Origin: Thermincola carboxydiphila
Lineage (GTDB): Bacteria; Bacillota; Thermincolia; Thermincolales; UBA2595
Assembly (NCBI GenBank): GCA_016841325.1
Contig: JAENZJ010000001.1
Coordinates: forward strand, 62,001-126,000
Direction: 5' to 3'
Length of the DNA stretch: 64,000 bases
In this document: positions 52,996 through 64,000 of the stretch, in pieces
Position numbering within the stretch: position 1 is the stretch's first letter
Layout: every line of letters starts with the position of its first letter
Program-made: the position numbers and the translations under genes
Notes under the pieces: generated by a model
Told to the model about the DNA's origin: nothing
The model's database searches: none
What the model saw: the letters and a program-made list of their open reading frames with translations, nothing else

Positions 52996-54402
52996 ATGTT
53001 TGCTGAAAATGACAGTAATTTGTACAGATTTTTTGTTGTGGTGGCAGCCTTTACCCTCGTATTTCCCAAAGCCGGAGAGACTGTAAACGGAATCCCTTTT
53101 ACGGCAGCTAACCTGCTTTTGGGAATCCTGCTTCTCTTGATAATTTTCCGCAGAACCAAACTAGATATCCCGGTTACGGAAAGGATATATCTGCTGTATA
53201 CATCTCTGGTCCTGCTGGTACCCTGGGTATTTTCAGCAGGAGACATTGTTGCCTATGTGAAGACAGTAATGCCGCTGTTTGTGTCCCTGGCGGTTTATTA
53301 TTGGATTAAGCCGGTGACTCAGGCGCTGGTTTCCCGAAAGGGGCGCCTGGATACCCTGGTCAGGGTAATGGCAGTATCTGTTATTGTTATTGTTGTTTTT
53401 GGATTTATACAAAAATTGTTTGGACATTATGAGACCATCATCCCGGGGCTGACCATGTCATATTCCAGTGCAAGCATTCCTGATATATTTTATCAGAAAA
53501 AGAACCTTGTCGGGTTACCCGGATTTTCTGAAACCATTCACAAAGTAACTTCCACATATCAAAACGGTAATTTGTTCGGTACTGTTCTGGTAATGCTGAT
53601 GTTCCCTGTAACGGCAGCGTTTCTTCACACCAGGGAACGCCATGATAAATTACTTTATGGGATTGCTGCAGTTATAGCTTTTGCAATAATTCCTTTTACC
53701 CTTGCCCGAAGTGTTCTCTTTGGTACGTTGGTCGGTGCAGGAATGCTTTTTTTAATGCAGCGGGACAGAAGAAATAAAACAATTGTGGTGTTTTTGGTGC
53801 TGCTCATGTTTGCTTTGATCCTGCCCAGCCCTTTTATAAGAACAAGGATGATTATATCTTTTTTTGACCCAACTATGAACGGACGTATTGAGCGGATGAT
53901 CAGTGTCAGTAACTTTGCTTCAGAGCCTGTTGCCACATCCGGGGCGGAGGAAAATAACAGTATATCAGAAGAAGGGAAAGTGATAGAACCAAACAGCGGC
54001 ACAGGGAATACAGATTCCCAATGGTTATCCAAAATATTTGGGTTTGGATTTGCCGGGGCTGCAGCTGAAAAAATTGGGAGTTTCTGGGACCTTTATACTG
54101 AAAACATGTATTTCACTTCTTACATTTTCACTGGTTTGGCAGGTGTATTACTTTTTGCTGCTGTAATTGGGCGGACACTTTATATCATTTTCCAATATAT
54201 AAGAAATGAACTTACCCGAATGAATTTCTTATCAGGGCTGGCTGTTGGGATATTCTGCGGTCTGATGGCATTTTTGTGCCAGGCATTTATCGAAGGGCCA
54301 TTCAGCCTGCCTCCGACAGGATTCGTATTCTGGTTTATGGCAGGACTGGGGCATGCAGCGGTTGGTCTGGCATATGAAAATAATCGGGCTGTGAGGATAT
54401 GA
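52996..54402 (+). CDS. O-antigen ligase/polymerase-like membrane protein (no TPR)
   Basis: This 468-residue protein has about 11-12 membrane segments. It has a large outer loop at about 290-345 (ENNSISEEGKVIEPNSG, then GFGFAGAAAEKIG) and an earlier TYQNGNLFGTVLVML segment as in WaaL/Wzy proteins. Unlike the proteins at 11274 and 37107 it lacks C-terminal TPRs. It is the third ligase or polymerase candidate in the window and probably polymerises the repeat unit made by the flanking enzymes. ATG 52996 is preferred to GTG 52987. Confidence 0.8.
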   Translation: MFAENDSNLYRFFVVVAAFTLVFPKAGETVNGIPFTAANLLLGILLLLIIFRRTKLDIPVTERIYLLYTSLVLLVPWVFSAGDIVAYVKTVMPLFVSLAVYYWIKPVTQALVSRKGRLDTLVRVMAVSVIVIVVFGFIQKLFGHYETIIPGLTMSYSSASIPDIFYQKKNLVGLPGFSETIHKVTSTYQNGNLFGTVLVMLMFPVTAAFLHTRERHDKLLYGIAAVIAFAIIPFTLARSVLFGTLVGAGMLFLMQRDRRNKTIVVFLVLLMFALILPSPFIRTRMIISFFDPTMNGRIERMISVSNFASEPVATSGAEENNSISEEGKVIEPNSGTGNTDSQWLSKIFGFGFAGAAAEKIGSFWDLYTENMYFTSYIFTGLAGVLLFAAVIGRTLYIIFQYIRNELTRMNFLSGLAVGIFCGLMAFLCQAFIEGPFSLPPTGFVFWFMAGLGHAAVGLAYENNRAVRI

Positions 54403-54404
54403 GT

Positions 54405-55514
54405 ATGCGTATAGTAATCGATGCCAGGATGATTACAGATGAAATGCATGGTATAGCCAGGTACACCTATAACCTGGCAGACCGGCTAACCCGTCTGGAC
54501 CAGGAAAATGAATATATCCTGCTGGCCGGCAGTGACTCCCTGGCAGAATTTGCGGCAGACAGGCCCAACTGCCGGCTGGAACGTGTCAGGTCAAAGTTTA
54601 TCTCTGTGGCTGAACAGGCGGAACTGCCAAAAGTATTAAAAAAGTTAAAGGCTGACCTCTTTCACAGCCCGTCTTTTGTAGCCCCCCTGTATTGTCCCTG
54701 CAGGCTTATAATGACAGTCCATGATGTGAACCACATGGTATTCCCCCAATATTACGGGAGGATACATCAGGTGTACTACAGGCATGTTGTCAGACCTTCA
54801 GCCTTGAAGGCCCGGAAAATACTGACTGTGTCCCGCTTTTCCCGCAGTGAAATCATAAAGTTTTTGGGTATTTCACCCGAAAAAATAATTGTGACATATA
54901 ACGGTATTGACAATGCATTTAAGGTGATTGACAAAACCGGTGTCCTGGAAGCAGTCAGGCGCAGGTACCGGCTTCCTGCCAAGTTTGCTTTGTATGTGGG
55001 GAATAAGAAGCCCCATAAGAATGTGGAGCGGCTGATGGAGTCATTTTCCAGGGTCAGGACGGACTGCGCTTTGGTAATGACAGTGGAGCCCGACAGCCGA
55101 CTGACCGCCCTGGCAGAAGACCTGGGCCTGGCAGGACGGGTAATATTTACCGGCAATGTAGCCGGGCACGACCTCCCTGTTTTGTATAACCTGGCTGCGG
55201 TTTTTGTCTTCCCCTCATTATACGAGGGTTTCGGCCTGCCCCCTTTGGAGGCAATGGCATGCGGGACCCCTGTAATTACTTCTAACCGGTCCTCACTGCC
55301 GGAAGTGACGGGAGAGGCTGCCCTTCTGGTTGACCCGTACAGTTCAGAGGAACTGACTGCTGCTATTGACCGGGTCCTGCAGGATGAGGGACTGTGCAGG
55401 GAGATGGCTGCAAAGGGCCTGTTACAGGCAGCTGAGTTTTCCTGGGAAGAAACCGCCAGGCAGACCCTGGAGGTTTATAAAGAAGTATTGAAAGGGGGCG
55501 GACAGCTTAAATGA
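54405..55514 (+). CDS. GT4 family glycosyltransferase
   Basis: This 369-residue GT-B enzyme shows IDARMITDEMHGIARYTYNL, VHDVNHMVFP, YVGNKKPHKNVERLM and PSLYEGFGLPPLEAMACGTPV (E-x7-E), the pattern of mannosyl- and rhamnosyltransferases such as WbpZ-like enzymes. ATG 54405 has GAGGAT at good spacing; ATG 54399 overlaps the previous stop. Its own stop overlaps the next start (ATGA), so the pair is translationally coupled. Confidence 0.9.
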   Translation: MRIVIDARMITDEMHGIARYTYNLADRLTRLDQENEYILLAGSDSLAEFAADRPNCRLERVRSKFISVAEQAELPKVLKKLKADLFHSPSFVAPLYCPCRLIMTVHDVNHMVFPQYYGRIHQVYYRHVVRPSALKARKILTVSRFSRSEIIKFLGISPEKIIVTYNGIDNAFKVIDKTGVLEAVRRRYRLPAKFALYVGNKKPHKNVERLMESFSRVRTDCALVMTVEPDSRLTALAEDLGLAGRVIFTGNVAGHDLPVLYNLAAVFVFPSLYEGFGLPPLEAMACGTPVITSNRSSLPEVTGEAALLVDPYSSEELTAAIDRVLQDEGLCREMAAKGLLQAAEFSWEETARQTLEVYKEVLKGGGQLK

Positions 55515-56641
55515 AAGTTGCTATAGTCCACGAATGGCTGGCCAACATGGGCGGTTCCGAAAAAGTTGTCCTGGCCTTTAAAGAGATTTTCCCTGATGCC
55601 CCCATATATACAACTGTTTATAATCCGGACAGGGTTGACCCGGCCTTTCATAACATGGATATCCGGACCTCTTTTATCCAGAGACTGCCGAGGGGCAGGA
55701 CCGCCTACCAGTCCTACCTGCCGCTGATGCCTACTGCGGTTGAGCAGTTTGATCTCAGCAGCTATGACGTGGTCCTCAGCAGCAGCCATGCAGTGGCCAA
55801 AGGTGTCCTCACAGGGACCAATACCCTTCACATCACCTACTGCCACACACCCATGCGTTATGCCTGGGACTTTTACCATGAATACCTGGACGGGCCCGGG
55901 GCAGGCCGGGTCAAGCGGCTGCTGATTCCCTGGCTGATGAACTATATCCGCATGTGGGACAGGCTTTCTGCCGACAGGGTGGATTACTTTATTGCCAACT
56001 CGGGATATGTGGCCCGGAGAATAAAAAAGCATTACCGGAGGGAGTCAGAGGTAATCTACCCACCGGTGGATACCGCTTTTTTTGCCGCACCGGACCCGGC
56101 GGTGCCCGTTAACGCCGGAGATTACTATTTCATTGTATCCCGCCTGATACCTTATAAAAGGATTGACCTGGCAGTGGAGGCCTTTACAGGCCTGGGGCTG
56201 CCCCTGAAAGTGGCTGGAGACGGCCCGGAACGGAGGAGGCTGGAGGAGATGGCCGGACCCAATGTGGAGTTCCTGGGCCGGGTCTCTGATGCTGAAATGA
56301 AGAAACTGTATACGGGGTGTAAGGCCTTCATTTTTCCCGGGGAAGAGGATTTTGGCATTACCCCTGTAGAGGCCCAGGCAGCAGGGCGGCCGGTGATAGC
56401 TTACGGTGCCGGAGGGGCTCTGGAGACGGTGCTGCCGGGGGTTACCGGGGAGTTCTTCCAGCCCCGGACAGCAGAGGCGCTGGCCGGGGTTGTCAGCAGG
56501 TTCGACCCGGACGAATACCGTCCTGAGGTGATCCGCAGGCATGCTGCCGGCTTTGACCGGGAATTGTTTAAACAACGGATTCAGGAGTTTGTAGAGGAAA
56601 GATACAGAGAATTCCAGGAAATTGGCAGACAGGGTCTGTAA
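55511..56641 (+). CDS. GT4 glycosyltransferase, mannosyltransferase-like
   Basis: This 376-residue enzyme shows VHEWLANMGGSEKVVLAF, YCHTPMRYAWDFYHEYL, VSRLIPYKRIDLAVEAF and PGEEDFGITPVEAQAAGRPVI (E-x7-E), typical of the WbaZ/WbdB-type mannosyltransferase group. It starts in an ATGA overlap with the previous gene, behind GGGGGCGGA. GDP-mannose is also needed for gmd, so the donor pool would be shared. The donor assignment is by family resemblance. Confidence 0.9.
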   Translation: MKVAIVHEWLANMGGSEKVVLAFKEIFPDAPIYTTVYNPDRVDPAFHNMDIRTSFIQRLPRGRTAYQSYLPLMPTAVEQFDLSSYDVVLSSSHAVAKGVLTGTNTLHITYCHTPMRYAWDFYHEYLDGPGAGRVKRLLIPWLMNYIRMWDRLSADRVDYFIANSGYVARRIKKHYRRESEVIYPPVDTAFFAAPDPAVPVNAGDYYFIVSRLIPYKRIDLAVEAFTGLGLPLKVAGDGPERRRLEEMAGPNVEFLGRVSDAEMKKLYTGCKAFIFPGEEDFGITPVEAQAAGRPVIAYGAGGALETVLPGVTGEFFQPRTAEALAGVVSRFDPDEYRPEVIRRHAAGFDRELFKQRIQEFVEERYREFQEIGRQGL

Positions 56642-56662
56642 CTGTTTTTGGGGGAGATAGCT

Positions 56663-58054
56663 TTGCTTAAAAAGTACCAGCGGTTTTTCAACCTGATAAT
56701 GTTTGCCCTTGACGGGCTGGTGCTGACCGTATCATATTTTGCTGCTTACCTGTTCAAATGGGGCTTCTACCCCATAAGCCAGATGGACTGGCTGTATCTG
56801 AAGGCCCCTTTGTGGATGATTCCCCTGGTGCTCATCGTATACTTCTTTATGGAAGTATATTCACCAATGCGAAGCCGGATGCTGCGCAAGGAAATGCTGC
56901 TGATTATCCGGGCCCATGCAATAGGGATGATCCTTATTTACGGCCTGCTGTACCTGACCAAGATGTACATATACTCCCGGATAGTGCTGTTCACCTTTGG
57001 GGTTGTTTCCCTGGTGCTGATACTTCTGGAACGATTTATGATGCGCCGGATGCTCCGCTACCTGAGGTCCATCGGTTATAACCAGAAACACTTGCTGATT
57101 GTGGGAGCCGGAACGGTGGGTGTGGAATTTGCCCAAAGGGCCCTGTCTCACAAAGAGTTCGGCTACAATGTGCTGGGTTTTCTGGATGACGACAGGGATA
57201 AAAAAGGCAGTGAGGTCCTCAACCGCAAGGTCCTGGGGGACTGCAGCCTCCTGCCGGAGCTGCTGGCTTCCAAAGGTGTCGATGAGGTCATTGTGGCCCT
57301 GCCCCTGAGCGCTTATGACAAATACCACGGCATTGTTGATGAATGTGAGAAAGCCGGGGTCAGGGTGCGGATTATTCCGGACTATTTTGATTATCTCCCG
57401 GGGCGGCCCAAGGTGGAGGAGTTTGATGAAATTCCCCTGCTCAATATCCGCCACGTCCCCCTGGATGACCCCTTTAACAGGTTTGTCAAGAGACTGTTTG
57501 ATATCCTGGTATCCCTGACAGCAATAATACTTACCCTGCCGCTGATGGTTATCATCACCGCAGGTGTCAAACTGACTTCCCGCGGCCCGGTCCTCTTCAA
57601 ACAGGAGCGGGTGGGGCTAAACAACAGGCCCTTTAATATGTACAAATTCCGCTCTATGCGGGTCGCCGGTGATAATTCTTCCGATACCAAGTGGACAACA
57701 GCAGATGACCCGCGAAAAACCTGGTTCGGTACGTTCATCAGGAAAACCAGCCTGGATGAACTGCCACAGTTCTTCAATGTCCTGCTAGGTGATATGAGTG
57801 TTGTCGGCCCAAGGCCGGAACGGCCGTTTTTTGTGGAGCAGTTCAGGGAGAAGATTCCCAAATACATGGTCAAACACCAGGTGAAACCGGGTATCACCGG
57901 GTGGGCCCAGGTCAATGGCTGGCGGGGGGACACCTCCATAGAGAAGCGCATTGAGTGTGATATCTATTACATAGAAAACTGGGACCTATTGTTTGACATC
58001 AAAATAATGCTGTTAACTGTGGTTAAAGGACTGATTAACAGGAATGCGTATTAG
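56663..58054 (+). CDS. Undecaprenyl-phosphate sugar phosphotransferase (WcaJ type)
   Basis: This 463-residue initiating enzyme has four N-terminal membrane segments, a CoA-binding-like domain (LLIVGAGTVGVEFAQRAL, near 150) and a catalytic domain from about 275. Signatures include TSRGPVLFKQERVG, YKFRSM, KTSLDELPQFFNVLLGDMS, GPRPERPFF and GWAQVNGWRGDTS. The motifs fit undecaprenyl-phosphate glucose phosphotransferase. TTG 56663 follows GGGGGAG; TTG 56648 overlaps that site. With the enzyme at 13647, the window holds two initiators. Its end carries a tandem duplication. Confidence 0.92.
   Translation: MLKKYQRFFNLIMFALDGLVLTVSYFAAYLFKWGFYPISQMDWLYLKAPLWMIPLVLIVYFFMEVYSPMRSRMLRKEMLLIIRAHAIGMILIYGLLYLTKMYIYSRIVLFTFGVVSLVLILLERFMMRRMLRYLRSIGYNQKHLLIVGAGTVGVEFAQRALSHKEFGYNVLGFLDDDRDKKGSEVLNRKVLGDCSLLPELLASKGVDEVIVALPLSAYDKYHGIVDECEKAGVRVRIIPDYFDYLPGRPKVEEFDEIPLLNIRHVPLDDPFNRFVKRLFDILVSLTAIILTLPLMVIITAGVKLTSRGPVLFKQERVGLNNRPFNMYKFRSMRVAGDNSSDTKWTTADDPRKTWFGTFIRKTSLDELPQFFNVLLGDMSVVGPRPERPFFVEQFREKIPKYMVKHQVKPGITGWAQVNGWRGDTSIEKRIECDIYYIENWDLLFDIKIMLLTVVKGLINRNAY
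57813..57832 (+). other. Terminator-like hairpin inside the second sugar transferase gene
   Basis: GGCCG (57813-57817) and CGGCC (57821-57825) flank GAA, followed by G and T6. It sits at the same codons (PRPERPFF) as the structure at 14776. Confidence 0.4.
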
Positions 58055-58076
58055 CTTAACGGGAATGTATATTAGC
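58035..58076 (+). repeat. 21-base tandem duplication at the sugar transferase/UbiA junction
   Basis: TTAACAGGAATGCGTATTAG-C (58035-58055) is repeated with two changes at 58056-58076. The first unit contains the stop of the sugar transferase gene, and each unit contains an ATG in frame with the UbiA gene. Confidence 0.85.
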
Positions 58077-58934
58077 GCCCGGCAAACTGCCCCGGTCATT
58101 AAAACCATGCGCCCGGTACAGTGGACCAAAAACCTGGTTATATTTGCCGGGGTAATTTTTTCCGGAAAACTGTTTGCCGGCGGTTATTTGCTGAAAACCC
58201 TGTCTGCCTTTGCAGTTTTTTGCCTGTTGTCGGGCTCGGTTTATATAATTAATGACCTGGCAGATATGGCTGAAGACAGGAGCCATCCGGAAAAGATGAC
58301 CCGCCCCCTGGCGTCAGGGCTTTTGAGTACCGGTCCGGCGGCGATGGCTGCCGGGATAACCGCAGTGACGGCGATTGCGGGAGCTTTTCTGCTTAACACC
58401 GGCCTGGGCTTCCTAGCGGTAAACTACTTTGCCATTACCCTGGGTTACAGCCTGTATTTGAAGAATATTGCCATAATTGATGTCCTTATAATTGCCACCG
58501 GTTTTGTCATCAGGGCCGCTGCCGGGGCAGTGGTTATTTCTGTCGGCATTTCCCCATGGCTGTTGATATGCGCCTTTCTTTTGGCGCTGTTCCTGGCGCT
58601 GGCCAAGCGCAGGCATGAACTGCTGTATGGCGATGTTACCCGGCTGTGCCGGGGGAGCCTTTACCATTACACCCCCCGGATGCTGGATGGGCTGATCCAT
58701 GCTGCTGCTGTGGCCACAGTGACAGGATACTCGCTGTATACGGTCAGCCAGGACCATTCCGTATACCTTGTGACAACCGTACCGATGGTGGTTTTCGGTG
58801 TTTTCAGGTACAGGCACCTGGTCTATCACAGGCGCCTGGGGGGGACCCCGGAGACTGCACTGCCTGGGGACAGGCCCTTGTTTTTGACGGTCCTGTGCTG
58901 GGTTATCACTTCAATAATAATTGTTTATATGTAA
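58044..58934 (+). CDS. UbiA-family polyprenyl-phosphate transferase (DPPR-synthase-like)
   Basis: This 296-residue membrane protein has about eight membrane segments and the UbiA aspartate motif NDxxDxxxD at 70-78 (NDLADMAED), then SHPEKMTRPLASG. The second conserved loop reads LKNIAIIDVLIIATGFVIRA (adjoining motifs). It resembles decaprenyl-phosphate phosphoribosyltransferase (UbiA/Rv3806c group), which starts polyprenyl-phosphate arabinose or ribose synthesis. No DprE1/DprE2-type epimerase is in the window. The start is uncertain because a 21-base duplication supplies two in-frame ATGs (58044 and 58065). It overlaps the previous gene by 11 bases. Confidence 0.8.
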   Translation: MRISLTGMYISARQTAPVIKTMRPVQWTKNLVIFAGVIFSGKLFAGGYLLKTLSAFAVFCLLSGSVYIINDLADMAEDRSHPEKMTRPLASGLLSTGPAAMAAGITAVTAIAGAFLLNTGLGFLAVNYFAITLGYSLYLKNIAIIDVLIIATGFVIRAAAGAVVISVGISPWLLICAFLLALFLALAKRRHELLYGDVTRLCRGSLYHYTPRMLDGLIHAAAVATVTGYSLYTVSQDHSVYLVTTVPMVVFGVFRYRHLVYHRRLGGTPETALPGDRPLFLTVLCWVITSIIIVYM

Positions 58935-58946
58935 AGGCGGAGGGCC

Positions 58947-60029
58947 ATGAGCAGGGTTTATATATTAAAGACCAGTCCGGAAACGGTACTTGACGACTAT
59001 GCCCGGCTGTTAAAGATGGCCGGGGTCAGTCAAGTTCTTGACCCCGGGAAAACAACAATCCTCAAGGACAATATTTCCTGGCATTTTCCTTACCTCAGCG
59101 CCAACACCACACCATGGCAGCTGGAAGGGGTTATCAGGGGGCTCCGGGAACAGGGTTTTTCCCGGATGTCCTGTGTCCGCAACAAAACGGTGGTCACCAG
59201 CCCCTTTAAAGGGGAAAAGCTCAATAAATACCGGCCTGTAATGCAGAAGTATGACATTCCTGTTTTGTATAATTTCTGCGATACGGACATGAAATGGGTG
59301 AGGTATGAACCAAAAGGCGAAATGCTTGCCCTGGACAGTATATTTCCTGAAGGTATATTTATCCCCGACTATTTCATTGGCAAAAACATCGTACATCTTC
59401 CCACTGTCAAGTGCCATGTTTATACCAAGACAACCGGGGCTATGAAAAATGCCTTTGGGGGGCTGCTGAATAACAACAGGCATTACGCCCACAGCAACAT
59501 TCATAAAGTCCTGGTTGACCTCCTGGTGATTCAGCAGGAGATTCACTCCGGGATATTTGCCGTGATGGACGGCACGGTCTGCGGTAACGGCGCCGGGCCG
59601 CGCACCATGGAGCCTGTGGAGAAGGACTATATCCTGGCCGGGAGCGACCAGGTAGCCATAGACGCCATAGCGGCACAAATGATGGGGTTTGACCCCATGA
59701 TGATACCATATATCAGGATAGCCCATGAACTTGGCCTCGGTGTTGGCAATCCCAAAGAAATTGAAATAGTCGGGGCAGATATTGCCGGGGCAAATTTTGG
59801 TTTCAGGACCGGGACTAATGCGGCATCCGGGGTGGGCCGCCTGCTCTGGTTTGGGCCGCTGCGCCGCCTGCAGCATATGTTTTTTCATACCCCCCTGGTG
59901 TACCTGTTTATTTTTGGGTCATTTTTATATCACGACTACTACTGGTGGCCCCTGAAGGGTAAAAAAAAGATGAAGCATTTGCGGGCTCAGGGGCGCTGGG
60001 GCAGGTTGTTTGCCCAATATCCTGATTGA
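58947..60029 (+). CDS. DUF362 domain protein
   Basis: This 360-residue protein matches DUF362: PGKTTILKDNISW near the start, IVHLPTVKCHVYTKTTGAMKN, then AVMDGTVCGNGAGP and VAIDAIAAQMMGFDP. No cysteine-rich ferredoxin motif is seen, unlike longer DUF362 proteins. A hydrophobic segment lies near residue 310 (LVYLFIFGSFLY). AGGCGGAGG precedes ATG 58947, 12 bases after the UbiA stop, so both are in one operon. Its function is not known to me. Pairing with UbiA suggests a role in a lipid-linked sugar pathway. Confidence 0.75.
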   Translation: MSRVYILKTSPETVLDDYARLLKMAGVSQVLDPGKTTILKDNISWHFPYLSANTTPWQLEGVIRGLREQGFSRMSCVRNKTVVTSPFKGEKLNKYRPVMQKYDIPVLYNFCDTDMKWVRYEPKGEMLALDSIFPEGIFIPDYFIGKNIVHLPTVKCHVYTKTTGAMKNAFGGLLNNNRHYAHSNIHKVLVDLLVIQQEIHSGIFAVMDGTVCGNGAGPRTMEPVEKDYILAGSDQVAIDAIAAQMMGFDPMMIPYIRIAHELGLGVGNPKEIEIVGADIAGANFGFRTGTNAASGVGRLLWFGPLRRLQHMFFHTPLVYLFIFGSFLYHDYYWWPLKGKKKMKHLRAQGRWGRLFAQYPD

Positions 60030-60062
60030 GGGTAGTTATTCTTGTGAGAGGAGGTTTTTACC

Positions 60063-61052
60063 TTGCGCGTACTTGTCACCGGCGGCGCCGGGTATATAGG
60101 CAGTCATACAGTGAGGGAACTGATACGGAACAAACATGAGGTGGTCATCATGGATAACCTCAGCAAGGGGCATCGCGGCGCTGTGCCCGCAGGCATTCCC
60201 TTCGAACAGGGGGACATTGCCGACCGGGCGCTGGTAAGTGATATCCTGCAGCGCTATGGTATTGAGGCGGTAATACATTTTGCCGCCTTCAGCCTGGTGG
60301 GGGAGTCTATGGCCGACCCGGCGCCGTATTTCCGGAATAATACCGCCGGCAGCCTGGCCCTCTTTGAGGCCATGGTCCAAAACAGGATTAATAAGGTGAT
60401 CTTTTCTTCAACTGCAGCTGTTTACGGGGAACCTGAACAGCAGCCGATTACAGAAAACGCCCCCAAGGCGCCAACCAACAATTACGGTCTGTCCAAGCTG
60501 ATGATAGAAGAGATTCTCCGCAGTTTTGACCGGGCTTACGGGTTAAATTATGTCAGCCTGCGGTATTTTAATGCTGCCGGGGCGCATATCTCCGGTGAAA
60601 TAGGTGAAGACCACCACCCGGAGACACACCTGATTCCCCTGGTGCTGCAGGCTGCCCTGGGACAGCGGGAAAGTATCAGGATCTTCGGGACTGATTACCC
60701 CACACCTGACGGGACGTGTGTCAGGGATTACATCCATGTGAGCGACCTGGCCAATGCCCATGTCCTGGCCCTGGAGTACCTGGACAGGGAACATACCTCC
60801 AATATCTTCAACCTGGGCAATGGGGAAGGCTTTTCCGTCAGGCAGGTGATTGATTCAGCGGTCAGGGTGACAGGCCGGAACATTGCCGCCATCGAAGATG
60901 AACGCCGGGCAGGCGACCCTGCAGTGCTGGTTGCCGGGTCTGACAGGATTAAGCAGGAACTGGGGTGGAAACCTGAATTTACCGGTATTGATTCCATTGT
61001 GGCCACAGCCTGGAAATGGCACCTGAACCACCCGGAGGGGTTTGGGGATTAA
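60063..61052 (+). CDS. galE: UDP-glucose 4-epimerase
   Basis: GalE interconverts UDP-glucose and UDP-galactose (or the N-acetyl forms). The 329-residue protein has GGAGYIG (7-13), DNLSKGH, FAAFSLVGESM, FSSTAAVYGEP, the catalytic YGLSKLMIE and RYFNAAGA, all diagnostic. TTG 60063 follows AGGAGG. It ends the polysaccharide region, and the next unit has its own promoter. Its product could feed either initiating transferase. Confidence 0.93.
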   Translation: MRVLVTGGAGYIGSHTVRELIRNKHEVVIMDNLSKGHRGAVPAGIPFEQGDIADRALVSDILQRYGIEAVIHFAAFSLVGESMADPAPYFRNNTAGSLALFEAMVQNRINKVIFSSTAAVYGEPEQQPITENAPKAPTNNYGLSKLMIEEILRSFDRAYGLNYVSLRYFNAAGAHISGEIGEDHHPETHLIPLVLQAALGQRESIRIFGTDYPTPDGTCVRDYIHVSDLANAHVLALEYLDREHTSNIFNLGNGEGFSVRQVIDSAVRVTGRNIAAIEDERRAGDPAVLVAGSDRIKQELGWKPEFTGIDSIVATAWKWHLNHPEGFGD

Positions 61053-61067
61053 CTTACCGGCTCCATA

Positions 61068-61119
61068 TTGACAATACAGGGTATCAGGGGTATACTGTGT
61101 TTAGACTGACCCGTCGGTC
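61068..61119 (+). promoter_or_regulatory. Efflux operon promoter with TetR-type operator
   Basis: TTGACA (61068-61073) and TATACT (61091-61096) are 17 bases apart, close to consensus. Immediately downstream, over the expected start of transcription, lies GACTGACCCGTCGGTC (61104-61119). This is an imperfect palindrome of form GACnGACnnGTCnGTC, the usual shape of TetR/AcrR operators. A TetR gene lies at 63542. Binding is inferred. Confidence 0.85.
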
Positions 61120-61143: not shown

Positions 61144-62277
61144 ATGGTCTATAACAGGGTGGCTGGCAACAGAATGGTCGGACTTCCGGTCTTACTGCTG
61201 GCAGCTCTAGCTCTCATTTTATCTGCCGGATGTGGAAGCGGGGACAATAGTACCGCAAATGAGGATAAAGCTGTGCCGGTTACAGTAATGGAGGCCAAAA
61301 AGGATAATATATCAGCAAAAACGGTTATTACCGGAAAAGTTACCCCGTCATCTGAAGTGATAATTATTCCCAAGATTGGCGGAAAGGCTGCCCGGGTACC
61401 GGTGGATATCGGTTATAAGGTGAAAAAAGGCGACCTGCTGCTGCAAATTGACACAACCGACCTGGAGATACAGCTTAGTGCTGCCATCAACGGACTTACC
61501 AATGCAAAGCTGACCCATGACCAAGCAGTTCTTAACTATAATAATGCCAAATCCAATTATGAACGCATGAAGTCCCTGTTCCAGGAAGGGGCTGTTTCCC
61601 AGCAGCAGCTGGAACAGGCAGAATTACAGTATAACCTGGCCAAAGACGCAATGAATCAGCCAGTTGCTGAAACAGCCATGAATCAGGTCGAGAGCATCAG
61701 GCAGCAGATCGCAGATGCTGGGATAACTTCACCTATAGACGGTGAAATAGCTACAAGGCAGATTGACCCGGGAGAGATGGCCGGATCGTCTTCGCCGGTG
61801 ATGACTGTGGTCAATATTGACACGGTATTTGTAGAGGCAACTGTGGCCGAAAGTGATATTGCCCGGGTTAAAGAGGGGCAGGAGGTAACCGTTAAAGTAG
61901 ATGCCGCCGGGGGCAGTTTCAGTGGAAAAGTAAAACTGCTTAGTCCTGTGGCCAATGCCCAGACAAAGGGCTACCCTGTTAAGATTGAGATAGATAACCC
62001 TGAACATCAGCTGAAACCGGGGATGTTTGCCGAGATTGAGCTGGTTACCAAAAAAAGGGAAGGTGTAGTGGCGGTTCCCAAAGAAGCCATTGTAGACAAG
62101 GGTTCCGGAAAGGTGCTTTATGTGCTGCAGGGCAGCGTGGTGGAACAGCGCCAGGTTGAGACAGGGATAGAGACAGATGAAATGACAGAGGTTGTGAAAG
62201 GGCTGGAAGTGGGTGAGAAATTCATCATTGAAGGCCAGCACAAACTTGCAGACAAGACAAAAGTGACCATTAAATGA
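61144..62277 (+). CDS. Efflux adaptor lipoprotein (membrane fusion protein, HlyD/AcrA family)
   Basis: This 377-residue protein has a lipoprotein signal peptide (LSAGC, Cys30), a barrel/lipoyl half (IIPKIGGKAARVPVDIGYKVKKGD as adjoining motifs), a coiled-coil hairpin (about 115-185), the returning lipoyl half (ITSPIDGEIATRQIDPGE) and a beta-barrel with C-terminal domain. Such adaptors link an inner-membrane pump to an outer partner. ATG 61144 follows GGAGGGGAG. It is first in an operon under a TetR-type operator. No RND or ABC pump gene lies in the window; it may follow the TetR gene. Confidence 0.92.
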   Translation: MVYNRVAGNRMVGLPVLLLAALALILSAGCGSGDNSTANEDKAVPVTVMEAKKDNISAKTVITGKVTPSSEVIIIPKIGGKAARVPVDIGYKVKKGDLLLQIDTTDLEIQLSAAINGLTNAKLTHDQAVLNYNNAKSNYERMKSLFQEGAVSQQQLEQAELQYNLAKDAMNQPVAETAMNQVESIRQQIADAGITSPIDGEIATRQIDPGEMAGSSSPVMTVVNIDTVFVEATVAESDIARVKEGQEVTVKVDAAGGSFSGKVKLLSPVANAQTKGYPVKIEIDNPEHQLKPGMFAEIELVTKKREGVVAVPKEAIVDKGSGKVLYVLQGSVVEQRQVETGIETDEMTEVVKGLEVGEKFIIEGQHKLADKTKVTIK

Positions 62278-62330: not shown

Positions 62331-63449
62331 ATGCTAAAGCGGATATTTACCAAAAAACTGGTTTCCGGGTTCCTGGTTTCATTGTTGATGCTGTCTGGTT
62401 TTGGAATTAACTATGCAGTCGGTGTTGACGGGCCGGAAGTGAAGGCCCTGAGCCTGGAGGAAGCTATCGAACTGGCCATGCAGAACAATCCTGATATGGA
62501 GATAGACGGTTTGGCTGTGGAGAAGGCTGAAGAGGAGTACAAGTTGGCGAGGGATCAGGCACGGGATTTGAAAAATGACATGGTCACTACATATGAATTA
62601 GGTTTAGCTAAATGGGTTAATCCCAAGGCTAAGGAAGTTGCCCTGATATTGGAAGAAAAGAAGCGGGATGTGGGTGAAAAGAAGCTGAAACTGGATGTGG
62701 AGAAGGCCTATTATGATGTCCTCAAGGCTGAGAAAGGTCTGGAAATAGAGAGGGCAGGGCTTACATATATGCAGGACCAGCTAAAAATTGCCGAAACAGC
62801 CTATAAGGTTGGCACAAAAGCAAAACTGGATGTCACCACTGCCGAAGCTGCTGTAGCAGGTTACCAGGCTTCTGTTACCCGTGCTGAAAACACCTACCGG
62901 ACTTCTGTGATGGAGTTAAACCGCATTACCGGACTGGACCTGGATACACCACTAAAACTGACTTCTAAGTTTGCTGTGGAAAAAGCCGGGGAATCTATTA
63001 ACCTTGAGGAAACCATTAATCAGGCCCTCGAGGATAATATTGATATCCTGGCAGCTAAGAAGACACTAGAGCTTAATGAGGTCCAGTATGAAGTGGCTAA
63101 AAAGTTTTATGTTCGGGGAGTAACCGCTTACGATACTGCGGAAATTGACAAACAGAGCGCTGAGGCAACCGTACGCAAACAGGATTTAAATACACGGGCC
63201 TCTGTCCGCAAAAGCTACCTGACACTGTTCAGCCTGGAGAAAATGATTGACTGGCAGACCAAAGAAGTGGAAAAGGCTAAAGAAAATGCCCGGGTATTGA
63301 TGCTGAAGTATGAGGCCGGGCTGGCTACCAGTCTGGATGCCAGGAATGCTGCCATTGACCTGGAGAAGGCCGAGCAAAATCTTTCAAACAGTATCTATGA
63401 TTATAACCTGACCAAGAGTCAGTTTAAATACCAACTCTTCACATCCTAA
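62331..63449 (+). CDS. TolC-like (outer membrane efflux) protein lacking obvious barrel strands
   Basis: This 372-residue protein has a signal peptide (about 1-29) and two tandem outer-membrane-efflux-protein repeats (about 38-205 and 222-370). Each is made of long alpha-helices (LSLEEAIELAMQNNPD; VGTKAKLDVTTAEAAVAGYQ; YEAGLATSLDARNAAIDLE). In TolC two barrel strands sit between helices in each repeat. Here those linkers are very short (about 80-103 and 258-272) and the protein is about 100 residues shorter than TolC. It may thus be a helical tunnel without a membrane barrel. ATG 62331 follows AAGGGGGAG. Confidence 0.85.
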   Translation: MLKRIFTKKLVSGFLVSLLMLSGFGINYAVGVDGPEVKALSLEEAIELAMQNNPDMEIDGLAVEKAEEEYKLARDQARDLKNDMVTTYELGLAKWVNPKAKEVALILEEKKRDVGEKKLKLDVEKAYYDVLKAEKGLEIERAGLTYMQDQLKIAETAYKVGTKAKLDVTTAEAAVAGYQASVTRAENTYRTSVMELNRITGLDLDTPLKLTSKFAVEKAGESINLEETINQALEDNIDILAAKKTLELNEVQYEVAKKFYVRGVTAYDTAEIDKQSAEATVRKQDLNTRASVRKSYLTLFSLEKMIDWQTKEVEKAKENARVLMLKYEAGLATSLDARNAAIDLEKAEQNLSNSIYDYNLTKSQFKYQLFTS

Positions 63450-63541: not shown

Positions 63542-64000
63542 ATGGACCGCCCGGCTGAAAAAGACAAGCGGATAAAAATTATCAAAGCAGCAGTTAAAGT
63601 CTTTTCCCGGAAAGGGTTTCATCAGGCCAGGGTTGAGGAAATAGCTCAACTGGCCGATGTTGGGAAGGGAACGGTATACGAGTATTTTTCCAGTAAAACG
63701 GAACTATTTCAGGAAATGTTCAAGGCCGGGATCCGGTTTTATCTGGACAGCCTGATTAATGACCTCAGTCCTGACCTTTCCTGTAAAGAAAAACTCTCCC
63801 GAATTGCCCGGCTCCACCTGAGATTTGTCAGCAACTATAAGGACCTGGCCAAAATTACCATGACGGAACACACATATTTCAATGAAGACTTCCGCAAATG
63901 GGTATGGGACTACCGGGCCAAAAAGCTTGAAATGTTGAAACAGATAATTGATGAAGGTATCGCCAGGGGGGAGTTCCGGAACATTGATTCTCAGGCGGTT
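63542..64000 (+). CDS. TetR/AcrR family transcriptional regulator (3' end outside window)
   Basis: The visible 153 codons encode a TetR-type regulator. The N-terminal helix-turn-helix reads VEEIAQLADVGKGTVYEYF (about residues 34-52), preceded by ALA/KAAVKVFSRKGFHQA-type helix 1. The ligand-binding domain begins and runs off the window end without a stop. AGGTG lies about nine bases before ATG 63542. It is downstream of the adaptor and TolC-like genes and is the likely repressor acting at 61104-61119, with an efflux substrate as inducer. Confidence 0.93.
   Translation, partial: MDRPAEKDKRIKIIKAAVKVFSRKGFHQARVEEIAQLADVGKGTVYEYFSSKTELFQEMFKAGIRFYLDSLINDLSPDLSCKEKLSRIARLHLRFVSNYKDLAKITMTEHTYFNEDFRKWVWDYRAKKLEMLKQIIDEGIARGEFRNIDSQAV

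Follow-up and report, generated by a model that had tools for sequence, protein, structure and literature searches.

A TolC-like protein lacking both pairs of barrel strands, encoded beside a lipoprotein adaptor in Thermincola carboxydiphila

We analyzed a 64,000-nucleotide stretch of the Thermincola carboxydiphila genome (GenBank assembly GCA_016841325.1, contig JAENZJ010000001.1, positions 62,001 to 126,000), hereafter the window. Sequence comparison confirms that it encodes a barrel-less OEP/TolC homologue in which the strand pairs are absent from both repeats. The protein is probably the exit-duct subunit of an RND-type tripartite pump, reduced to an alpha-helical tunnel. A first-pass annotation, made from the DNA letters, had singled out a TolC-like protein of 372 residues at this locus; its open reading frame, length, and OEP homology were all borne out. 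How a tripartite pump ends in cells without an outer membrane has been a question since TolC-like genes were noticed in monoderm Firmicutes. The absence of both strand pairs, together with an intact docking end, would provide a concrete and testable answer, i.e., a helical tube alone. The features discussed below are listed in Table 1.

Table 1. Features of the adaptor-TolC-TetR operon, numbered from the first nucleotide of the window.
Feature	Coordinates	Strand	Basis or remark
Sigma-A type promoter (TTGACA 61068-61073, 17-bp spacer, TATACT 61091-61096)	61068..61096	+	Read from sequence
Putative TetR-type operator, GACTGACCCGTCGGTC	61104..61119	+	Imperfect palindrome just downstream of the -10 box; conserved in orthologues
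Lipoprotein periplasmic-adaptor-like protein (MacA/AcrA type), 377 aa	61144..62277	+	Lipobox ending SAGC; TIGR01730, HlyD_D23
Adaptor alpha-helical hairpin	61456..61719	+	AlphaFold2
Adaptor RLS motif (R-MKS-L-FQEGAV-S), hairpin tip	61564..61599	+	Exact R-x3-L-x6-S; at the turn in the model
Barrel-less TolC-like (OEP) protein, 372 aa	62331..63449	+	Sec-type signal peptide, without lipobox
Repeat 1 outer loop, DQARDLKNDMVTTYELGLAKWVNPKA, replacing the first TolC strand pair	62553..62630	+	Linker 74 vs 99 (TolC)
Repeat 1 helix-turn-helix tip YKVGTKAKLDV, pump-facing	62802..62834	+	Aligns with TolC FNVGLVAITDV
Repeat 2 outer loop, KKFYVRGVTAYDTAEIDKQS, replacing the second TolC strand pair	63099..63158	+	Linker 60 vs 111 (TolC)
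Repeat 2 helix-turn-helix tip YEAGLATSLDA, pump-facing	63309..63341	+	Aligns with TolC YSVGTRTIVDV
TetR-family regulator, first gene past the TolC-like one	63542..64000	+	PF00440, E = 4.8e-17

The TolC-like gene begins at an ATG with a good ribosome-binding site; an alternative in-frame ATG lies upstream at position 62274, and the orthologues begin at the equivalent of the downstream start. Its product matches the Pfam family OEP (PF02321, E = 6.9e-30), and E. coli TolC is recognisable by sequence match. The two OEP repeats, the long helices, and the helix-turn tips of the OMF/TolC family are all present, and the two strands per repeat that make up the 12-strand barrel of this family are missing. 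With a signal peptide that was assigned by eye, it is a secreted OEP-repeat protein in a BAM-less genome, as are the proteins described by Stubenrauch et al. (2022). The gene is the sole OEP (PF02321) locus in the genome, save for a cross-match in the adjoining adaptor. Its nearest named relative, at 84% identity, is encoded by a Thermincola ferriacetica MAG. This was also the one true relative found in a single-protein search for related loci; a Saccharibacillus match was rejected as spurious, since it involved the signal peptide only.

In TolC, each repeat contributes two strands and the trimer forms a 12-strand barrel (PMC8277102). We aligned the window protein, its relatives, and E. coli TolC, and measured linker lengths as the residues between conserved anchor columns (N-P, A-Y-Y, and tip-G). 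Linkers 1 and 2 comprise 74 and 60 residues in the window protein compared to 99 and 111 in E. coli TolC, and hence 25 and 51 residues are missing at the sites of the TolC strand pairs; the remaining helix spacings (34, 73-75, and 34) are equal between the two proteins. Linker 2 spans 58-62 residues in all 89 short relatives and 89-168 residues in 18 full-length proteins (17 from the same phylum plus E. coli TolC), with no overlap, and linker 1 spans 58-105 and 99-166 residues in the same two groups. Among the short forms, the 59 from Omp85-negative genomes have linkers of 72-105 and 58-62 residues, both repeats being without strand segments, and the 30 from Omp85-positive genomes have linkers of 58-62 and 59-60 residues. 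These anchored lengths uphold, for both repeats, the earlier suggestion that the protein lacks the beta-barrel. The accompanying claim that the linkers show no alternating strand pattern needs qualification: they are too short for strand pairs, but linker 1 keeps a short alternating stretch, VTTYELGLAKW, that is similar in orthologues of the order and, judged by its length, could make up no more than one strand and is not long enough for a hairpin.

Structure prediction is in line with these measurements. The AlphaFold2 monomer, a low-confidence model from a two-sequence alignment (pLDDT 64.5, pTM 0.38, linker 1 being the weakest part), was all-helical with no strand, and the best PDB matches that Foldseek returned for this low-confidence model were all TolC/OprM-type proteins. 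Compared with the Omp85-positive short forms, Omp85-negative loci such as L058, L064, L117, and L124 have 10 to >40 additional residues in the outer loop of repeat 1; the length of this loop varies by lineage, and that of the repeat 2 loop is fixed. The longer repeat 1 loop could make contact with the wall or S-layer.

The adaptor encoded upstream matches NCBIfam TIGR01730 (RND_mfp, E = 2.3e-66) and also Pfam HlyD_D23; the HlyD/RND_mfp domains, RLS hairpin, and membrane anchor of RND periplasmic adaptors are all found in it. An AlphaFold2 model, again from a two-sequence alignment, places the hairpin helices at mature residues 77-119, 125-142, and 146-164, with a pLDDT of 92-95 around the hairpin tip and low confidence in the rest of the adaptor. 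The motif at this tip is identical in pattern in orthologous adaptors, and the RLS motif is the TolC-docking signature of adaptors (PMC8277102). The first-pass annotation had partnered the TolC-like protein with this lipoprotein, and the docking motif that the adaptor keeps agrees with that pairing. On the TolC-like side, the tip glycine is kept in 90 of 90 short forms in repeat 1 and in 75 of 90 in repeat 2. We infer from these two surfaces that the TolC-like protein docks on the adaptor hairpin.

The genome carrying the window belongs to the genus Thermincola and is 99% complete. Family searches of this genome, in which the controls gave matches, found no Omp85/BamA, LpxC, TamB, or LptD, and 7 of 7 members of the order in our phylum sample were Omp85-negative. 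These absences provide strong but indirect evidence for a single membrane in Thermincola; they support the earlier view that the host looks monoderm, for which a search for BamA, LptD, and other outer-membrane markers had been proposed as a check. Two SLH-domain proteins are encoded approximately 2 and 8 kb downstream (PF00395, E = 1.2e-35 and 9.5e-30). By gene content, they indicate a host with S-layer proteins, of the kind described by Stubenrauch et al. (2022). The genes downstream of the window include one presumably related to mannose-1-phosphate guanylyltransferases (named from its sequence), followed by those for the two SLH proteins, one of which is an SLH-domain subtilase. On the other side, positions 54399-61052 resemble a surface-polysaccharide gene cluster, with the adaptor-TolC operon at its end; its genes encode glycosyltransferases and proteins resembling undecaprenyl-phosphate sugar transferases and UDP-glucose 4-epimerases (named from sequence only).

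We also searched the fetched stretches around the relatives' short genes for SLH-like ORFs using a simple motif. Such an ORF was nearby in 12 of 52 Omp85-negative loci (L053, L058, L062, L065, L067, L068, L072, L074, L108, L109, L112, and L113) compared to 0 of 30 Omp85-positive loci (Fisher p = 0.003); because the loci are related and the stretches short, this difference is only suggestive. That SLH neighbors occur in only part of the relatives, at 12 non-independent loci, counts against the reading of the protein as a duct. Within the order, SLH-like ORFs lie near the TolC-like gene at L049 and L050.

In the phylum sample of 399 genomes, the family profile matches 256 and Omp85 is present in 104. 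Since Omp85-positive genomes carry short forms too, we reject outer-membrane loss as the full explanation of barrel loss; the barrel-less form is not necessarily an adaptation to life without an outer membrane, and a missing barrel is not in itself proof of a duct that spans the wall. The proposal of the first-pass annotation, a distinct form of efflux suited to a thick wall or S-layer, is thus retained in part: the protein is barrel-less and paired with an adaptor, but the same form occurs in Omp85-positive genomes, and the idea of TolC-like proteins in tripartite operons of monoderm Firmicutes, one of them modeled with an omission in its barrel, had already been published (Stubenrauch et al., 2022).

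The Omp85-positive relatives often encode both kinds of protein. In at least 17 of their 30 sampled loci, a full-length OEP protein (linkers of 101-166 and 89-168 residues) is encoded next to the short gene, i.e., at L076-L080, L084, L085, L087, L090-L093, L098-L101, and L103; these counts are not phylum frequencies, because a barrel-less profile served to select the short loci. L097 holds one further candidate, and at L086 the neighboring OEP gene is a fragment at a contig end. In a tree built without the strand columns, the short forms of both genome types fall mostly together and 13 of the 18 long ones apart, with weak backbone support (SH-aLRT 88) and long branches. We tentatively raise, while thinking it on the doubtful side, the idea that barrel-less OEP proteins are a separate subfamily: an older companion of full-length TolC in outer-membrane-bearing Firmicutes that was inherited by lineages without an outer membrane as a complete exit tube, instead of repeated barrel loss in each lineage. 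If this is true, tandem short and long proteins may work in series, and a barrel-less duct would have been reused after outer-membrane loss. The tandem forms in Omp85-positive relatives bear on how the outer membrane was lost in Firmicutes.

The tandem genes and the tree topology also fit a different role, in which the short protein, instead of being the exit duct, is a helical accessory that extends the adaptor or adds a second layer to it. It would then sit between the adaptor and the full-length TolC encoded by the next gene in Omp85-positive genomes, with the Omp85-negative lineages having kept the short form and lost the long one. We consider this role unlikely, given that the backbone support is weak, that several Omp85-positive loci have a short form with no long neighbor detected, and that the short form retains both pump-facing tips, as an exit duct would.

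The operon is completed by the TetR-family regulator gene, which starts 92 bp after the TolC-like gene and runs beyond the window end; the full gene on the contig encodes 198 aa. A TetR gene lies close by in 7 of 7 members of the order, in 35 of 52 other Omp85-negative loci, and in 2 of 30 Omp85-positive loci. The promoter has the same arrangement 5' of the adaptor gene in orthologues. The putative operator is identical across orthologues of the family except for one mismatch in G001, and its chance expectation in the window is 0.09 when up to two mismatches are allowed; we rejected the site as a hairpin in its own right, since it folds no better than shuffled sequences. The regulator encoded in the operon would bind this operator.

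The operator appears to extend the regulon to a second locus. In the orthologues, the 16-bp sequence GACYGACYNGTCGGTC directly follows the -10 box of the adaptor-TolC-TetR operon, and it also occurs just upstream of an RND gene in 7 of 7 loci (L035-L041); this gene, RND-B, represents a second orphan RND group that occurs in most other genomes of the order. In whole-genome searches, the operon and RND-B sites were the only exact matches in five of six well-assembled relatives (G002, G003, G005, G006, and G009), the sixth being G001 with its mismatched operon copy. The operator is also present in the incomplete genome G008, where the gene after it could not be identified. Because the motif was derived from the operon and RND-B loci, its presence at both is by construction; the evidence lies in the lack of other exact sites and in the sharing of the motif by two loci. 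This pattern suggests that, in genomes of the order, one pump is split over two distant loci under a common operator, and it would name RND-B as the likely pump partner there.

In the genome carrying the window, the whole-genome search returned the operon site alone; neither RND-B nor its operator was found at the syntenic site or anywhere else in the assembly. In the sister genome G005, RND-B is flanked by one gene for an ABC transporter and one for a sensor. The flanking genes are approximately 65 bp apart in the window's genome (G000:C23:90973-91039, L164), within a 181-kb contig, and RND-B has therefore been deleted and is not merely unassembled. No RND, ABC, or MFS gene is present in the window's operon, which counts against the duct reading. 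Two RND genes lie elsewhere in this genome: RND-A (C48), with its own TetR gene and without an adaptor, and another (C40) with its own adaptor. With the co-regulated gene deleted, the adaptor-TolC pair would now either work with a different RND protein (C48 or C40) or have none. RND-A has orthologues in 10 of 10 genomes of the order and is a candidate partner in this strain. It cannot be taken as a proven one, given that a TetR of its own accompanies it, that the operator is missing there, and that it forms a clade with RND-B apart from the RND proteins adjoining TolC-like genes in other families; because of this separation, the partner is assigned from the operator and not from descent. Among 83 loci outside the order, an RND gene lies beside the short gene in 46, of which 41 are in Omp85-negative genomes (fetched stretches), and the loci of some other relatives have MacB-type ABC permease genes instead. 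Two relatives in the order have an additional short TolC-like paralogue, at L016 and L017 (G001:C7 and G003:C55), next to a gene for a MacB-type ABC permease; the window's genome has no such paralogue.

With RND-B and its operator cleanly removed, the adaptor-TolC pair could also be a leftover in this strain, exporting nothing since its co-regulated RND gene was lost. This we hold to be quite improbable. The promoter and operator are intact and the frame is open. Pairwise omega values including the window's genome are 0.08-0.15 for the TolC-like, adaptor, and TetR genes, which indicates that purifying selection continues; for the TolC-like gene they are 0.09-0.14, similar to values between sister genomes that keep RND-B, although such an average is blind to very recent relaxation. 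Moreover, it is common for a TolC protein to work with several pumps, and RND-A comes without an adaptor. This RND-B-less strain offers a natural opportunity to see whether the tube also works with other pumps.

In the exit-duct reading that we prefer, three copies of the protein would form a helical tube whose inner end, carrying both conserved tips, meets the RLS hairpin tips of the adaptor. The adaptor would receive substrate from a cytoplasmic-membrane RND pump and funnel it into this tube. With short loops at the positions of the TolC barrel strands and no outer membrane to cross, the tube would open in or beyond the wall or S-layer. The TetR repressor would control its own operon through the operator after the promoter and, elsewhere in the order, the separate RND gene as well. 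The trimer, the pump partner in this strain, the position in the wall, and the substrates are what we infer within this reading. It is very improbable that the protein is instead a coiled-coil envelope protein of other function (a tether or spacer) merely descended from TolC: an OEP protein minus its barrel is indeed a bundle of long helices, but both docking tips are conserved, the operator is common to an RND gene, an adaptor adjoins throughout the order with the RLS motif wherever checked, and RND or MacB-type genes are adjacent in many relatives.

What is new here is the completeness and spread of barrel loss, the operator shared with a distant RND gene, the clean loss of RND-B, and the short forms in Omp85-positive relatives, often in tandem; in the open-licence literature, we found no discussion of complete barrel loss, a recurrent short/long tandem, or a split pump linked by an operator. 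Stubenrauch et al. (2022, PLoS Biol, PMC8809574) described TolC-like proteins in tripartite operons of monoderm Firmicutes, restricted to S-layer-bearing species. Their case comprises 12 proteins and one homology model; their model of the C. difficile TolC-like protein has an omission in its barrel, and the authors still place a hydrophilic barrel domain in the S-layer; they also mention one operon with two TolC-like genes. Our locus shares with theirs a TolC homologue, the absence of BAM, adaptor and regulator genes, and an S-layer-bearing host. In contrast, the strand segments of both repeats are absent here, as in 59 Omp85-negative forms, the pump gene has no place in the operon, and the co-regulated RND gene is deleted in this strain.

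The protein resembles E. coli TolC (OMF, PF02321) in its two OEP repeats, helix spacings, and pump-facing tips, but has neither the strand pairs (74/60 vs 99/111) nor the long C-terminal tail, and its genome lacks Omp85. Likewise, the RLS-hairpin adaptor, the TetR regulator, and the RND gene in the operon of many relatives recall AcrAB-TolC and MexAB-OprM; unlike in those systems, outer-membrane genes are absent, and the RND gene, which in the order has a separate locus with the same operator, is gone from this genome. Dred_3141, an OEP protein reported in the Desulfotomaculum reducens surface proteome in 2014 (PMC4137172), is similar by description, being a PF02321 protein of a monoderm Gram-positive found among surface proteins with HlyD-family and S-layer proteins; we count this finding in favor of the duct reading, and that paper makes no structural claim on the protein. 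We rejected Filifactor alocis as a Gram-positive precedent for a TolC partner, as the paper offers only a Pfam OEP label on one protein. In outline, the reading is also similar to MmpS5L5 of Mycobacterium tuberculosis, in which an alpha-helical tube without a barrel leads from an RND-superfamily pump into the wall; however, that tube is an insertion in the pump itself and not derived from TolC, and M. tuberculosis has a mycomembrane (PMC12501195).
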